Assembly: GCF_007748115.1 (NCBI RefSeq)
Contig: NZ_CP036289.1
Location: forward strand, 2,046,001-2,110,000
Direction of reading: 5' to 3'
Source of the DNA: Bremerella volcania
Lineage (GTDB): Bacteria > Planctomycetota > Planctomycetia > Pirellulales > Pirellulaceae
DNA: 64,000 nucleotides
Each line of letters opens with the position of its first letter. Position 1 is the first letter of the stretch. Made by a program: the position numbers and the translations under genes. Below are positions 34,729-45,113 of this stretch, in pieces. Under the pieces are notes generated by a model, which had not been told where the DNA came from, made no database searches, and worked only from the letters and a program-made list of their open reading frames with translations.

Positions 34729-36390
34729 TTATTCAGCCAATTTAATGGCGTCAATTTCCGCCACGAAACGGCTTCCGTCATCCTCCAGGAACGATGCCAC
34801 GACCTGGAAGACCGCATCGCTGAACCCACCGACATTCAGGATGTCGGCCCGCTCCGGAGCCTGGGTCGTGGTGTAGGGCTGCAAGTCGATACACACCAGC
34901 TTGGGCGTAGCGATCTCGTGACCGCGAAGCTTCATCTGGTTGGCAACAAACTTTTGCCACTCACTCATCACGCCCGTCTGGCCGTAGCTTCCATATCCGT
35001 ACGGACGATTCTTGGTGATCCAGCTTTCGTTATCACTTAAGAGGATCACCCCGGCAAAGGGCCGATGTGCGTAACGTCCGTTGGCGGTTTGCAGTGGAAT
35101 GGAACAGTCGGTTCCACCACCACCGTAACGGGATAGCCGATCGGACAAGCTCAAGATCGAATCGTTGGGATCGAACTTCGCATCGTACGCAACGGTATCG
35201 AACGGCACGACCACGCTGTCCGGATTACGACGCAGGATCGCCGCTGCGAACAGCGCCGCCACGTCGACGCACCGCATCGTGGAAGTTGCTCCGCGGCCGC
35301 GGTAGCCGGTGACCGGACAATGCATCGATCCCGACACGTCCAAGCCGATCAGGACCGGACCAGGTAGCTGCGGAATGTTCCCACACGCAATCTCGGCAGC
35401 GCGGTGCAGCGCCGACTTGATTGCCTGCGGAACTTCATCCGAGGCATGCTTGTAGGCGGCCAGGAACTGGTACGGGAACTGCTTCGAACGCTTGATCTCA
35501 CGCTCGTCGGACAGCCGCTTCGCGATCAAGGCAACCATTTCGGCATCAGGCTTACCTGATTCGCTCCGCAGTACGCCCTGACGCAGCAGCGTATTCAAGT
35601 TCATCCGCAGTGCCTGCGGACCCATCTGCTTGGCGATCGCCTTCCAGGCATGCGCATCCTTGGCCGCATCAGCCAGCAGGTCCCACCGCACCGACAAATC
35701 GCGCACGATGCGGGCCTGTTCGGCCCCCTTCTTCGCTTCACGGAAGGCATTCAGCTGGCGCACTTCCTCCGGCAAGTCGTGCAGCGTAGCGGGAGCCCAC
35801 TGCGCGACCGGCTTTCCGGTCAACCAACCAAACAGCGCACGGCGCTCGTTGTTGGTTGGCTTAGGCCGAGCCATCCGCAGCACGTCGCGCAGCGAAGGAT
35901 CGTTACCGATCGAAGCGGAAAGCAGCTTCAGCGTGGAAGCGTCGTTCAGCCAACGCTCGAAGGCCCGCTTCAAGCTGGAAGACAATCCATTGCGTCCAAA
36001 GCGTCCGCTACGAACCATCTGGAACACGTTACGCAGCATGCGTCCATTGTCGACGACGCGGTCGAACACCTGATGGGTCAACTCCGTATCGCGAACCGAC
36101 AACATCACCAACAGCGCGGCCGGCATATCCTTCATCATTCCGCGCTGCCGCGCGTAAATGGCCAGCTTGGCCAGGAACCGGTCGTCGTTGACCTGATCTA
36201 CGAGCTTCACGACCTCGTCCAACTGCTGCTGACCGGTTGCGTAGAACGTACCGCTCAAGCATCCGGTGGATGCCAACTGCGCGAGTGCATGCTGGGGCGA
36301 CAACGCGTAGGCGGGGCCTCCGGCAGCATTACGCGCGTTAGCGCTGGGACGATGAGACTTGGTAGAACCGAACAACAGCTTGTTAGCCAT
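34729..36390 (-). CDS. rsr: TROVE-domain Ro60 orthologue (Rsr-like) with VWA MIDAS
   Basis: 553 residues from the ATG at 36390, with AAGGAG nine bases upstream; a longer frame to 36522 runs into the RNA gene and is rejected. Residues 1-340 are the HEAT-like TROVE ring that binds misfolded-RNA ends and Y RNA ([20 protein letters not shown], then [18 protein letters not shown]). Residues 345-553 are a VWA domain with a full MIDAS motif DVSGSMHC (D351, S353, S355) and a later [11 protein letters not shown]. Bacterial Ro proteins assist rRNA maturation and RNA decay, gated by Y RNA. Two Y-RNA-like genes lie immediately upstream on the same strand. Confidence 0.93.
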
Positions 36391-36429
36391 GGAAACATTC
36401 TCCTTGGCGAAGAATAAAAAAGTGAAAAA

Positions 36430-36541
36430 GCACACTCGACGAAGGGATGGCGAGAGCTCGGCCCGCACAATCAAAAAGGGCGGGCCGTCAAGAATCGAAC
36501 TTGAAAAACCATGTACTCCCAACCAGCAGTCGAGGGTGTGC
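36430..36541 (-). ncRNA. Y-RNA-like RNA 2 (reduced tRNA mimic lacking a D arm)
   Basis: About 112 bases. The ends pair: 5' GCACACCCTCGAC (36541-36529) with 3' GTCGAGTGTGC (36440-36430), leaving a two-base bulge. Inside is the motif GACTGCTGGTTGGGAGTACA, shared with the upstream RNA. Then comes a T arm, TCAAG-TTCGATT-CTTGA (36504-36488), directly followed by an 8-bp stem CGGCCCGC/GCGGGCCG (36487-36480 and 36466-36459) in the acceptor-stem position, closed by a 13-base loop. Only AGCTC remains where a D arm would start. CTTTTTCACTTTTTT follows the 3' end, and the TROVE start is 40 bases further. Stems were paired by eye. Confidence 0.7.
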
Positions 36542-36558
36542 GAAAAATGTTTTAAAAG

Positions 36559-36706
36559 GAAATGATCGACGAGGAATTGACCAGAGGTAATAACGCTGCT
36601 CTATCCACTGAGCTACACCCCCAAATTTGAAAGCAGGGGTGGCAGGATTCGAACCTGCGACACGCGGCTCTGCAAGCATGTACTCCAATCGGCAGTCAAT
36701 CATTTC
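36559..36706 (-). ncRNA. yrlA: Y-RNA-like RNA 1 (YrlA-type, circularly permuted tRNA mimic)
   Basis: About 148 bases. A closing stem joins 5' GAAATGATTGAC (36706-36695) to 3' GTCGATCATTTC (36570-36559), 12 pairs with one G-U. A short inner ATTG/CAAT stem follows. The head is a tRNA in permuted order: T arm GCAGG-TTCGAAT-CCTGC (36658-36642), 3' acceptor strand CACCCCT (36641-36635), a 12-base connector, 5' acceptor strand GGGGGTG (36622-36616), then the D arm GCTC-AGTGGATA-GAGC (36613-36598). Loop signatures (GG in D, TTCGAAT in T) are perfect. Bacterial YrlA RNAs have this layout, with the Ro-binding stem in place of the anticodon arm. TROVE lies downstream. Confidence 0.8.
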
Positions 36707-36735
36707 GTTCGTGCGATCACCATTGCGATCGTACG
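36707..36735 (-). other. Hairpin between the tRNA-Gln-like gene and Y RNA 1
   Basis: On the minus strand CGTACGATC and GATCGCACG can pair (nine positions, one A-C mismatch) around GCAATGGT. There is no T tract, so it is not a terminator. It may be a processing signal between the two RNAs or part of a longer leader on Y RNA 1. Confidence 0.4.
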
Positions 36736-36738
36736 AGG

Positions 36739-36814
36739 CTGCGGGAGTTGGAATTGAACCAACGACGTCTCGATTCAAAATCGAGGATCGCGTACCAGCA
36801 GCGAATATCCCGCA
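36739..36814 (-). tRNA. tRNA-Gln(TTG) or tRNA-Gln-like RNA
   Basis: A cloverleaf of 76 bases: acceptor TGCGGGA/TCCCGCA (7 pairs; U1-A72 is typical for Gln), anticodon stem CTCGA/TCGAG with loop TTTTGAA and anticodon TTG (36776-36778 on the plus strand), T arm GTTGG-TTCAATT-CCAAC, and discriminator G73 as in Gln tRNAs. The segment between acceptor and anticodon stems is 22 bases, the upper limit, with an 11-base D loop containing GG and a weak first D pair. The 3' end reads GCCT, so CCA is not encoded. The anticodon loop can pair further (ATT/AAT). It could be a working tRNA or part of the Ro locus. Confidence 0.62.
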
Positions 36815-36820
36815 TGAAAA

Positions 36821-36858
36821 CAAAAAAAGGCTCCTCGCCGCATTCGACGAGGAGCCTT
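36821..36858 (-). terminator. Rho-independent terminator upstream of the RNA genes
   Basis: On the minus strand AAGGCTCCTCG (36858-36848) pairs with CGAGGAGCCTT (36838-36828) over a 9-base loop and is followed by TTTTTTTGTTTT. It would end transcripts from the ZIP transporter gene and so separate that gene from the tRNA/Y-RNA/TROVE unit. Confidence 0.83.
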
Positions 36859-37055
36859 CTATCGGAGAGACAGAGAGGTCGACGCGTCAAATGCGTTGCC
36901 AGCTTCGGCCGGCTCGGAGCGTGGGTTGCTCTGCCCTGAAACCGAAGCCGTTGGAATATTGCGTTATTAGTGGATTGAGATGGGATGACACGGGGTCTCT
37001 CCTGATGTTGCCTGGCACTTGCTCAGGCGGCTGGTTGATTGTTCTGGATAGATGG

Positions 37056-37088
37056 ACGTGCCAAACGCCGTGGGGTTCACGCTGGCAC
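37056..37088. repeat. Inverted repeat after the ZIP gene
   Basis: CGTGCCA (37056-37062) and TGGCACG (37082-37088), with an inner CGTG/CACG pair in the loop. It lies 18 bases past the ZIP stop codon on its transcript. No T run follows, so it may protect the mRNA 3' end. The rest of 36859-37105 shows no gene. Confidence 0.45.
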
Positions 37089-37105
37089 GGAGAAAAAGTT
37101 GAAAG

Positions 37106-37819
37106 TTACGGAAGCAGTTCGCAACCCAATACACCCAAAGCGAATCCCAGCACGGCACCCAGTGCCGGTGCCCAGGCCTTTTCTAGCCGGGCCTGAGGCG
37201 CGATGTCTTGAAAGACCAAGAATAAGATTCCACCGCCAGCGACGAGTTTGATCGCCGCGACCACGGCCGGGTACTGCGCCAAAAGAAGAAAGCCACCCAG
37301 TCCCGCAATCGGTCCGAGGAGTGCCAGAACGCCAAATACCATGACGATCTTGAAGCCGGAAATACCAGGCCCCTGATTCATTTCGCGGTAGGCATTAAAT
37401 CCTTCGGGAAGATTTTGTAGGGCAATCAAAATGGCTAGCAACGGCCCGGAATTTCCGCCAGCACTAAAAGCCGCTCCTAGTGCCATGGCTTCGGGGATGA
37501 AGTCGGACAACATCGCCACGAGCTGCGTGGTGGGGCTATGGTAACGGGCCAGAAGGATATCGAGCCCACAAAAGATGAGCCCTCCCAAGACAAACCACAA
37601 TACCGAATAGTGGGTAGGGAGTTCTTCTATCCCCTCCGGCACTAAAACCAAGGCCACAGCGGAAAACAAAGCACCGCCACCAAATGCCATCACGGCATGC
37701 CGGAATTCCTGCTCAAGCCATTCGCGATGGATATGTTCGATGCGTGCGAAGAGTGCTCCCAGCGGCATCGACATACCGGCCATCAGCGTCAGTAAAGTAA
37801 CAGTTAACCAAGTGGGCAT
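37106..37819 (-). CDS. ZIP-family divalent metal transporter
   Basis: 237 residues with seven or eight hydrophobic helices. The family's metal-site helices are visible as SDFIPEAMALGAAFSAG and LIALQNLPEGFNAYREM, the HxxxE/NxPEG pattern of ZIP helices IV and V, although the usual His of helix IV is replaced by Asp in the first. The N-terminal helix has AGMSMPLGALFARIEH. It probably imports zinc or a related metal across the inner membrane. Monocistronic, with a downstream hairpin and a terminator at 36821-36858; divergent from the baeRF gene. Confidence 0.87.
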   Translation of the reverse strand: MPTWLTVTLLTLMAGMSMPLGALFARIEHIHREWLEQEFRHAVMAFGGGALFSAVALVLVPEGIEELPTHYSVLWFVLGGLIFCGLDILLARYHSPTTQLVAMLSDFIPEAMALGAAFSAGGNSGPLLAILIALQNLPEGFNAYREMNQGPGISGFKIVMVFGVLALLGPIAGLGGFLLLAQYPAVVAAIKLVAGGGILFLVFQDIAPQARLEKAWAPALGAVLGFALGVLGCELLP

Positions 37820-38029: not shown

Positions 38030-39193
38030 ATGGAACCGCAATTGATTCAAACGCTCCTAGACGACCCGAGCCAGATTTGCGTCTCAATCTACATGCCCAT
38101 GTTTCGCTGGGGCCGCGAAGTTCAGCAAAATGAAATCCGCTACAAGAATTTGATGAAAGATACGGCGACGCTGCTTCAAAGCGATGAAGTTTGTGACGCC
38201 GATTGCCGCAAAGCCATTCTTAAGCGGTTGGAAGACTTTGGAGATGACGAAACGCACCAAGCATGGCGTCATCCTTCCGCCGGTTTAGCACTCTTCGTTA
38301 CGCCAGACTCTATGCAAGTGCAACAAATGGGTTGCAAGTTGACTGAACAGGTGCATGTTGGCGAACGTTTTTATCTGCGTCCCCTGTTGCCAGCGCTGCA
38401 TGGTGATGGCCGATTCGTGCTAATCGCCGTCAGCCACAACCATGTGCGATTGTTTGATGGCAACGCGGATGGCCTGGAAGAACGCGTTCCAGCCGAACTG
38501 CCTGAGAACCTGAAGGACGCACTGAACATTGATGACTACATGACGTCGATCCAGCATTTCAGCTATGCCCAGGGGAACGACGTCGACACGATGTATCACG
38601 GCCAAGGTGCCGGTGAGGATGATCACAAACAAAATATCCTGCAGTTCTTCCACCGAATAGACGCCCCTTTGAATCAGTTCTTGGAAGGACGCAACGATCC
38701 GCTCATATTTGCCGGCGTCGAGTATCTTTATCCGATCTTCAAGGAAGCGATTAGTTACCCAAACCTGTTGCCTGAGAGCGTACATGGGAATTTCGACGAC
38801 GCTTCGGCCGATGAGCTTCACGAAAAAGCACAGGGTGTCGTTCGGCCGTACTTCCAGCAGGAATGCGAAAGAGCGATTTCCAACTATCAAGACGCCTACG
38901 GCCAGAATCGTGCCACGAACGATCTGGAGACGATCCTACGGGCATCGGAGATGGGCGCCGTCGAGGCCCTTCTCATTCGTGAGGATACAGCCATTTGGGG
39001 ACACGTCGACCAAGACGGGCACGTTCAGAACGATGGCGGCCCGAGTGAAGTCAGCCACGATCTGTTAGACGATGCCGCCGTGGAGACACTTAAGAACGGC
39101 GGAGACGTCTTCGTCGTTCGCGAAGCAGATTTCCCTGAGAAAGATTGCGCTGCCGTAGCGCGACTTCGCTTTGAAATCGCGTCCCCTATTTGA
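38030..39193 (+). CDS. Bacterial archaeo-eukaryotic release-factor-like (baeRF) protein
   Basis: 387 residues. The order of conserved blocks matches the baeRF3/baeRF7-type family, related to eRF1: an N-terminal Ile/Tyr-rich domain (CVSIYMPMFRWGREVQQNEI), LIAVSHNHVRLFDG, the central block DDHKQNILQFFHRIDAPLNQ, PLIFAGVEYLYPIFKEAISY, and a C-terminal LLDDAAVETLKNGGDVFVV. Comparative work proposes a role in ribosome rescue or translation stress, but none is proven here. AAGGAG ends ten bases before the ATG at 38030. It lies near the TROVE/Y-RNA locus, separated by the ZIP gene. Confidence 0.78.
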   Translation: MEPQLIQTLLDDPSQICVSIYMPMFRWGREVQQNEIRYKNLMKDTATLLQSDEVCDADCRKAILKRLEDFGDDETHQAWRHPSAGLALFVTPDSMQVQQMGCKLTEQVHVGERFYLRPLLPALHGDGRFVLIAVSHNHVRLFDGNADGLEERVPAELPENLKDALNIDDYMTSIQHFSYAQGNDVDTMYHGQGAGEDDHKQNILQFFHRIDAPLNQFLEGRNDPLIFAGVEYLYPIFKEAISYPNLLPESVHGNFDDASADELHEKAQGVVRPYFQQECERAISNYQDAYGQNRATNDLETILRASEMGAVEALLIREDTAIWGHVDQDGHVQNDGGPSEVSHDLLDDAAVETLKNGGDVFVVREADFPEKDCAAVARLRFEIASPI

Positions 39194-44935: not shown

Positions 44936-45113
44936 AGCCCCAACGGGGCGGCAGATAATAGCCAGGGGCGTAAGCCCCTGGAAAGGAAGTGTATAGTTGT
45001 GAGCCCCAACGGGGCGACAGAAATTCTGTCGCCCCGTTGGGGCTCAGTCAATAATTGGGACATGCAACCAGGGGCTTGCGCCCCTGGCTATTATCTATCG
45101 CCCTTTCAGGGCT
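44936..45113. repeat. Nested palindromic repeat element
   Basis: The outer arms start at 44936 and end at 45113 and are inverted copies over about 46 bases, both containing GATAATAGCCAGGGGC and an AGCCC end. In the centre, 45001-45045 is a perfect inverted repeat of 22 bases per arm around one A, built on GCCCCGTTGGGGCTC. Each outer arm also contains its own small palindrome (CCAGGGGC...GCCCCTGG). The element fits REP/MITE-like families abundant in such genomes and can form very stable RNA on either strand. It lies between cysS and ruvC. Confidence 0.8.

Follow-up and report, generated by a model that had tools for sequence, protein, structure and literature searches.

Organisation of the rsr locus

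The window analysed in this study is the whole 64,000-nt stretch of Bremerella volcania (Pirellulaceae, Planctomycetota; hereafter the host) between positions 2,046,001 and 2,110,000 of contig NZ_CP036289.1, and coordinates given without a locus or genome label are counted from its first letter. A tRNA-Gln gene, a YrlA-type Y RNA, a second Y RNA (Y2) situated in the leader of rsr and rsr itself follow each other in this order on the minus strand. The rsr gene (34729–36390, minus strand) encodes a protein of 553 aa. Pfam matches were obtained for vWA_Ro60 (7.7e-14) and TROVE (6.1e-12, over 283–367 of 442 positions only), and the best PDB match was 2nvo, a Ro sixty-related protein (E 1.3e-19). 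The protein thus carries the TROVE and vWA domains and the homology to a solved Rsr/Ro structure by which Rsr/Ro60 proteins are recognised. The start was assigned to the ATG at 36390, which is conserved in relatives, and the listed open reading frame begins at a TTG (36522). A PNPase gene is also present in the host.

The tRNA-Gln gene (TTG; 36737–36814, minus strand), called by ARAGORN, lies upstream of both Y RNAs and is found at the same place in six genus members (G001, G002 and G005–G008); in G003, another genus member, the stretch contains six tRNAs, of which five are within 600 nt. The D arm of the window tRNA-Gln is unusual, and visual comparison shows a likeness of this tRNA to a tRNA-Gln (CTG) near G000:C1:727 kb; two more tRNA-Gln genes of the host are differently shaped. 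Just upstream of the tRNA-Gln gene lies a terminator-like hairpin with a T run (36825–36860, minus strand; 1 found versus 1.2 expected in shuffles), and a similar hairpin was recognised by eye at this position in genus relatives. The hairpin ends 10 nt before the 5′ end of tRNA-Gln, thereby leaving little room for a usual promoter, and no sigma-70 promoter was found in 36300–37150.

Several other features were noticed in the window. On the plus strand, an open reading frame (36627–37196; GVAGFEPATR..GVGIEPTTSRF) is antisense to T arms and to a tRNA and is probably a false gene. A baeRF family 7 gene (bacterial archaeo-eukaryotic release factor; 38030–39193, plus strand) is located near the Ro locus. 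Two Acido-Lenti-1 RNAs (RF01687), one on each strand, are separated by about 90 nt (44936–44981, minus; 45068–45113, plus), and a match to this family just under the threshold was also seen in array L126.

Structure of the first Y RNA

The first Y RNA (36559–36706, minus strand) consists of a closing stem, a second stem of the Ro type and a permuted tRNA-like head, as supported by Rfam RF02553, folding and covariation. The initial annotation had claimed that the ends pair over 12 positions, that a T arm, a 3′ acceptor strand, a 12-base connector, a 5′ acceptor strand and a D arm occur between them in that order, and that the acceptor strands match with one wobble; all of this was borne out. 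The closing stem is formed by the 5′ strand GAAATGATTGAC (36695–36706) and the 3′ strand GTCGATCATTTC (36559–36570), with 12 of 12 positions paired, one being U-G, and is backed by fold and covariation. The T arm GCAGG-TTCGAAT-CCTGC (36642–36658; helix 4 of the 23-unit alignment described below) is followed by the acceptor-like 3′ strand CACCCCT (36635–36641), a 12-nt linker read from the sequence (36623–36634), the acceptor-like 5′ strand GGGGGTG (36616–36622) and the D arm (36598–36613; helix 6). The two acceptor strands form helix 5, with 7 pairs including one U-G.

Two elements are additions to the earlier description. The second stem of 8 pairs joins the 5′ strand GATTGGAG (36683–36690), within the conserved 5′ box GACTGCC..GGAGTACAT, to the 3′ strand CTCTGGTC (36579–36586), after which comes the conserved 3′ box ending CGTCG; fold, box conservation and covariation support this stem. 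The other addition is a remnant of the anticodon stem, namely, three pairs between 36664–36666 and 36594–36596 (pair listing and helix 3 of the alignment). The view that the anticodon arm had been replaced by the closing stem was therefore nearly right and needed one amendment, in that these three pairs remain and covary.

The minimum-energy fold of the 148-nt RNA reached −50.0 kcal/mol (z −2.33), and 6 of 200 shuffles were equally good. The closing stem, T arm, acceptor helix and D arm, for which such a fold had been proposed as a check, were all recovered together with the second stem; the anticodon-stem remnant was not in this fold, and a local hairpin was predicted there instead. ARAGORN found no tRNA within the first Y RNA, its sole call here being the adjacent tRNA-Gln.

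Conservation of the first Y RNA

The unit of the window was aligned with 22 units from the genus, family and order. These 23 units were drawn from 38 units bearing both a T arm and a D arm, and the other 15 were excluded by eye before counting owing to long inserts, shorter heads or other heads. In the alignment, 94.5% of 848 cells were paired; shuffled alignments gave 82.8% paired cells and 11.3 pairs changed on both sides, and 0 of 500 were as high. When partners were slid, 36–49% of cells were paired, a control that leans toward the structure because the structure was written from the window sequence. Loss of pairing in relatives had been named at the outset as the result that would speak against the element; pairing was found to be conserved, with 22 of 39 pairs changed on both sides. 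Among the single helices, 99.1% of T arm cells were paired with changes on both sides in 4 of 5 pairs, the acceptor strands showed such changes in 6 of 7 pairs, and the D arm was paired in 100% of cells with one such change among 4 pairs. RNAalifold, run unaided on the 23 units, predicted 26 pairs, 16 of them changed on both sides, and recovered the closing stem, T arm, acceptor and D arm; it returned neither the second stem, at whose site a two-pair local hairpin was predicted, nor the anticodon remnant.

Circularly permuted tRNA genes occur in some algae and archaea, and the element could be such a gene, with the 3′ half first and a working tRNA arising after end joining. The order of the halves and the paired ends would suit this explanation, as would the 20 nt around the T arm, which are identical to host tRNA-Arg(TCT). 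However, only three anticodon-stem pairs are left and there is no anticodon loop; the letters at the anticodon-stem site vary over the 23 units with pairing mostly kept; the same stem bears non-tRNA heads; and the 76 host tRNAs called by ARAGORN already serve all 20 amino acids. A permuted tRNA gene is thus very improbable.

Relationship to the YrlA family

YrlA RNAs have been described as 90–150 nt long, their ends forming a large stem and a further domain resembling tRNA (PMC8394870). The first Y RNA lies inside this range with its folded length of 148 nt. It presents the features expected of YrlA, including a tRNA-like head that runs from the T arm through the acceptor to the D arm, a Ro-type stem (paired ends, a second stem and an internal loop between them) and a coding position near rsr. 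The covariance-model check proposed for the element was performed as an E-value search with Rfam YrlA (RF02553), and yielded a match of 40.8 bits (E 1.2e-7) over model positions 23–86 of 114, under the gathering score of 69. This score is a database cut-off and no biological trait, and it was passed in 1 of the 98 genomes searched. At the gathering threshold, the window returned no Y RNA match, just the two Acido-Lenti-1 RNAs. We therefore term the first Y RNA YrlA-type and do not call it a member of RF02553.

In the Rfam model, the T arm likewise comes first and is followed by the acceptor and the D arm, and the four outer pairs that enclose them correspond to the anticodon-stem remnant of the first Y RNA. 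Permutation is accordingly an already known trait of YrlA, because the layout is identical. A relative of the same order (G065) carries two tandem units scoring 73.5 and 67.6 bits over the whole YrlA model, the former exceeding the gathering score; the boxes of this relative, AUGCC..GGAACUACAU, form a transition from the Rfam consensus to the boxes of the window. The Rfam match, the covariation, the G065 boxes and the identity of rsr uphold the proposal of a YrlA relative next to a TROVE gene. The window element is a YrlA-type Y RNA of a planctomycete, and as such of a known type.

It might also be supposed that two independent tRNA pseudogene halves came to lie in this order by chance, and separate weak tRNA matches (E 1.6 and 5.3) were indeed obtained for them. 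The joint match to the YrlA model at E 1.2e-7 and the covariation of the acceptor strands flanking the linker (6 of 7 pairs) argue against this origin, the probability of which we regard as next to negligible.

TROVE was detected in 28 and YrlA in 30 of 98 genomes, the host included. Both occurred in 25 genomes, TROVE only in 3, YrlA only in 5 and neither in 65 (Fisher p 2.8e-15, an overstated value because related genomes are not independent). A genus member that is 96% complete (G004) is without TROVE and also without YrlA. Box units were present in all three TROVE genomes lacking a YrlA match (G017, G035 and G049), and among the five YrlA genomes lacking a TROVE match, rsr was recovered by tblastn in one (G057). 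Sub-threshold YrlA matches were seen in 7 of 14 control genomes, none above the cut-off, so that a weak match alone is no proof; the position beside rsr and the boxes are stronger evidence.

The second Y RNA and the rsr leader

Y2 (36430–36539, minus strand; fold and alignment) comprises a closing stem, a second stem, a T arm (36488–36504) and an acceptor-like hairpin of 8 pairs (36480–36487 with 36459–36466), and has no D arm. Its closing stem is of the same type as in the first Y RNA, with the 5′ box GACTGCTGGTTGGGAGTACAT and the 3′ box CTCTCGCCATCCCTTCGTCG. The fold reached −42 kcal/mol (z −3.06; 1 of 200 shuffles equally good). Eight units of this compact form were chosen for alignment from 28 'T' units, among which quite different heads occur; 92.1% of 240 cells were paired and 10 of 30 pairs were changed on both sides, a level reached by 0 of 500 shuffles, with the acceptor helix as the weakest part (81.3% paired). 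The Y2 stretch gave no Rfam match up to E 10, YrlB (RF02565) included, and the exact Y2 T arm is absent from the 76 ARAGORN-called host tRNAs. The host tmRNA was considered as a model for Y2 and discarded, as no clear likeness was seen by eye.

Within the genus, Y2 stands beside the first Y RNA in the host (G000), G001, G002, G007 and G008, with two boxes each. G005 (L004) has Y2 with a variant box, and G006 lacks it, the nearest 3′ box there being 134 nt from rsr. In the window, Y2 ends 39 nt before the rsr start codon and 24 nt before a Shine–Dalgarno-like AAGGAG (36400–36405, minus strand). Thirty loci were surveyed with a loose 3′-box pattern, one of them without an N-terminal rsr hit. A 3′ box was found ahead of the rsr start in 24 of the other 29 loci at distances of 18–134 nt, and in 22 of these 24 it was at most 61 nt away, the exceptions being G006 and G026 (80 nt). 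The values of 18–19 nt in G000, G001 and G002 came from a spurious TTCGCC match, and these three distances were re-read by eye: the true 3′ box of the window is 50 nt from the rsr start, and G001 and G002 are alike. The five loci with no 3′ box within 160 nt encode either a distant protein (L002, 23% identity) or an rsr product at 42–44% identity (G042, G059, G065 and G082). The initial annotation had included neither Y2, with its place in the leader of rsr, nor the arrays of relatives.

This arrangement would also fit mainly cis-regulation, in which Y2 is no free Y RNA and instead acts within the leader, where it responds to Rsr or tRNA and thereby controls the translation of rsr. The short distances from Y2 to the start codon and the Shine–Dalgarno-like site, and the common occurrence of a Y 3′ box near the rsr start in relatives, favour such a role. 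However, its closed stem and boxes recur in units located apart from rsr, and we consider a purely regulatory leader unlikely.

Y RNA arrays in relatives

The box pattern was searched in the 98 genomes and gave 104 matches in 41 genomes, compared with 26 in 22 genomes for the pattern read backward. Single scattered box matches may thus be due to chance; clusters of several boxes in one place were not matched by this control. The largest arrays contained up to 8 box matches per locus (G016 and G040). A regular-expression scan of the fetched loci yielded 112 distinct units. A matching end stem closes 95 of them; among the 17 others, some (e.g. L093, L098 and L112) look like chance matches. The closed units comprise 38 with T and D arms, 28 with a T arm only, 10 with 23S-like sequence and 19 with neither. 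One stem type is combined with several heads in relatives, including class I tRNA, Leu-like tRNA, T/acceptor only and 23S-like heads. By eye, Leu-like heads with a long variable arm and a Leu-type D arm were recognised at L057 1630, L042 1131 and L143 984.

A same-strand tRNA lies within 600 nt of a box in 24 of the 35 Y loci examined (G027 counted twice, and three loci without a box by that pattern), and the nearest one is tRNA-Cys(GCA) in 13 of those 24. In one genus member (L136; G008:C1:638800-640800), an isolated short Y unit, remote from rsr, was noticed right after an apparent tRNA-Cys gene. The host tRNA loci that were fetched contained no Y unit by pattern, and a third host box match (G000:C1:3289868) was rejected, having no 3′ box by eye and looking like coding sequence. 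The head of a short Y unit in L055 (1890–1960, plus strand) contains the 12-mer AGTACGAGAGGA, which we take to be the sarcin–ricin loop 12-mer of 23S rRNA; it was seen in this one unit among the loci scanned and may be a chance occurrence.

23S-like heads

The 23S-like head is not present in the window. Twelve units of relatives were compared by blast with the host 23S gene (L121), and their common segment corresponds to 21–24 nt at 23S positions 1855–1878, presumably the helix 69–71 region of domain IV. Nine of the 12 units are identical over 21–24 nt at 1855–1875/1878 (E 3.3e-8 for L005 and 1.4e-6 for the others), L046 and L052 match in 23 of 24 nt (E 1.4e-6), and L143 matches in 20 of 24 nt (E 0.009). 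The tail of the unit, the consensus partner of this segment, has its best match ending at 23S 1852–1855 in 9 of 19 units, and in 6 of those 9 at most 25 of 500 simple shuffles scored as well. The tails of L145 and L158 reached the same shuffle level and align elsewhere in 23S; the middle segment reached it in 2 of 19 units. In the clear cases, the tail matches 23S just before the segment, so the order is swapped relative to 23S. Judged from these sequence matches, a permutation of the 23S-like head is suggested with moderate confidence.

For nine 23S-like units, RNAalifold predicted 44 pairs, of which 20 were changed on both sides, a number that none of 500 shuffles reached; the structure was derived from this same alignment. 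Of the ten 23S-like units of the array scan, L005 (divergent), L041 and L055 (inserts) had been excluded from the set, and L132 and L037 were added. Ten further units were cut, five of which were excluded (three with long inserts and two from contigs already represented). The remaining five units, which had no part in deriving the structure, keep 40–43 of the 44 pairs, versus 19–55% when slid, and the helix-69-like stem retains 5 of 6 pairs in three of them and 6 of 6 in two. In single-sequence folds of three 23S-like units, one of them folded without part of the 3′ end, the consensus was not the minimum (z −1.44, −2.35 and −2.09).

Exact matches to the pattern TMCATGACGGTCCTAAGGTAGCG were found in 15 stretches of genome contigs, in a scan that may omit records near the host's own genome. 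Fourteen are named as planctomycetes, among them Aeoliella straminimaris (genus in Pirellulales), and one only as 'bacterium'; 8 of the 15 are contigs of G003, G016, G025, G032, G035, G040, G062 and G071, so the sets overlap. The Y 5′ box stands directly before the 23S-like segment in 14 of the 15 stretches, and the fifteenth (L159) has the variant GACTGACGG. By tblastn, rsr was detected in 11 of the 15 and not in L146, L154, L156 or L158. A phage origin of the head was rejected, as the pattern had no match in viral contigs. Long inserts, rich in inverted repeats by eye, were seen inside the 23S-like units L149 (507–797, minus), L158 (273–565, minus) and L147 (6490–6756, minus), as if small mobile repeats enter the loops and leave the stems unbroken.

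These heads bear on the idea of a decoy, in which tRNA-like heads compete for tRNA-cutting enzymes in stress and Rsr merely stores or stabilises them. Such competition is raised for Salmonella YrlA in one report (PMC7790460). A decoy would agree with heads that copy a tRNA minus the anticodon, and with the frequent position of Y units beside tRNA genes, a possible supply of replacement tRNA. The heads are nevertheless without the anticodon loop, which is the cut site in Salmonella (PMC7790460), and a 23S-like head is unfit for a pure tRNA decoy. We consider this explanation quite unlikely.

Proposed mechanism

Both RNAs of the window share one Ro-type double stem with conserved boxes; the head of the first Y RNA copies parts of a tRNA in permuted order, as if opened within the anticodon stem, and that of Y2 copies a T arm with a closed acceptor-like helix. 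In our overall reading, the window holds a Ro locus with a YrlA-type Y RNA and with Y2 in the rsr leader, the RNAs acting in tether or gate roles, and we hold this reading to be probable. By analogy with other bacteria, the Rsr ring would hold the double stem of the Y RNA. The head would then show its tRNA-like elbow and acceptor outwards, where it could recruit or occupy tRNA-recognising enzymes and PNPase, and the Y RNA may gate entry to the Rsr ring as described for Deinococcus. As the initial annotation proposed, the head may also be modified like tRNA and be open to cleavage by RNase P/Z. Binding of Rsr to its own leader through Y2 might couple the Rsr level to free Y RNA; alternatively, Y2 may be cut out of the rsr message. 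The tether and gate model, the contact between stem and Rsr, and the link to PNPase derive from other bacteria (PMC8394870, PMC4726728).

A wider proposal, made tentatively and with slightly less than an even chance of being right as a whole, is that planctomycete Ro loci are adaptor sets in which a constant Rsr-binding double stem carries exchangeable heads. Each head would be the copy of a translation RNA opened at an outward hairpin and permuted, with the Ro stem replacing that hairpin. The tRNA would be cut in the anticodon stem and the 23S rRNA in the helix 69 loop, and through these heads the Ro machine, or its partner enzymes, would be directed to tRNA or to 23S rRNA. The leader Y RNA would balance the amounts, and the window would represent a reduced form with two RNAs.

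If one Ro protein does use several heads that copy tRNA and a piece of 23S rRNA, a single locus would allow these heads to be exchanged and their effects compared. For autoregulation, the leader Y RNA provides a simple model.

Comparison with known systems

The first Y RNA shares with Rfam YrlA (RF02553) the order of parts, the double basal stem with an internal loop, the neighbouring rsr and the retained anticodon-stem pairs. It differs in the box letters (CUGCC..GGAGUACAU in the window versus AUGC..GGAACUAC in Rfam YrlA), in matching model positions 23–86 alone and in its score under the gathering value. Y2 resembles YrlB (RF02565) of the Salmonella rsr-yrlBA-rtcBA operon in being a second Y RNA near rsr; however, Y2 lies upstream of rsr, whereas the operon name (PMC7790460) puts rsr first, and Y2 lacks a match to the YrlB model at any E-value up to 10.

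With the RYPER complex of Deinococcus radiodurans, in which a Y RNA tethers Rsr to PNPase, the host has in common genes for an Rsr homologue (the 2nvo match), a Y RNA and PNPase; a difference is that many planctomycete loci carry several Y units with different heads. Deinococcus Rsr is reported to take part in the maturation of rRNA during heat stress and in its decay upon starvation (PMC4726728), and the 23S-like Y RNA is thereby a concrete RNA for testing that report.

The 23S-like heads share with the helix 69–71 region of 23S rRNA the segment of 21–24 nt and a tail whose pairing with this segment resembles helix 69; unlike 23S rRNA, they are apparently permuted in the clear cases, have a shortened helix-71-like hairpin and are set on a Y stem. 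No title or abstract on 23S-like Y RNAs or planctomycete Y arrays appeared in a literature search that did not cover the main Y RNA papers.
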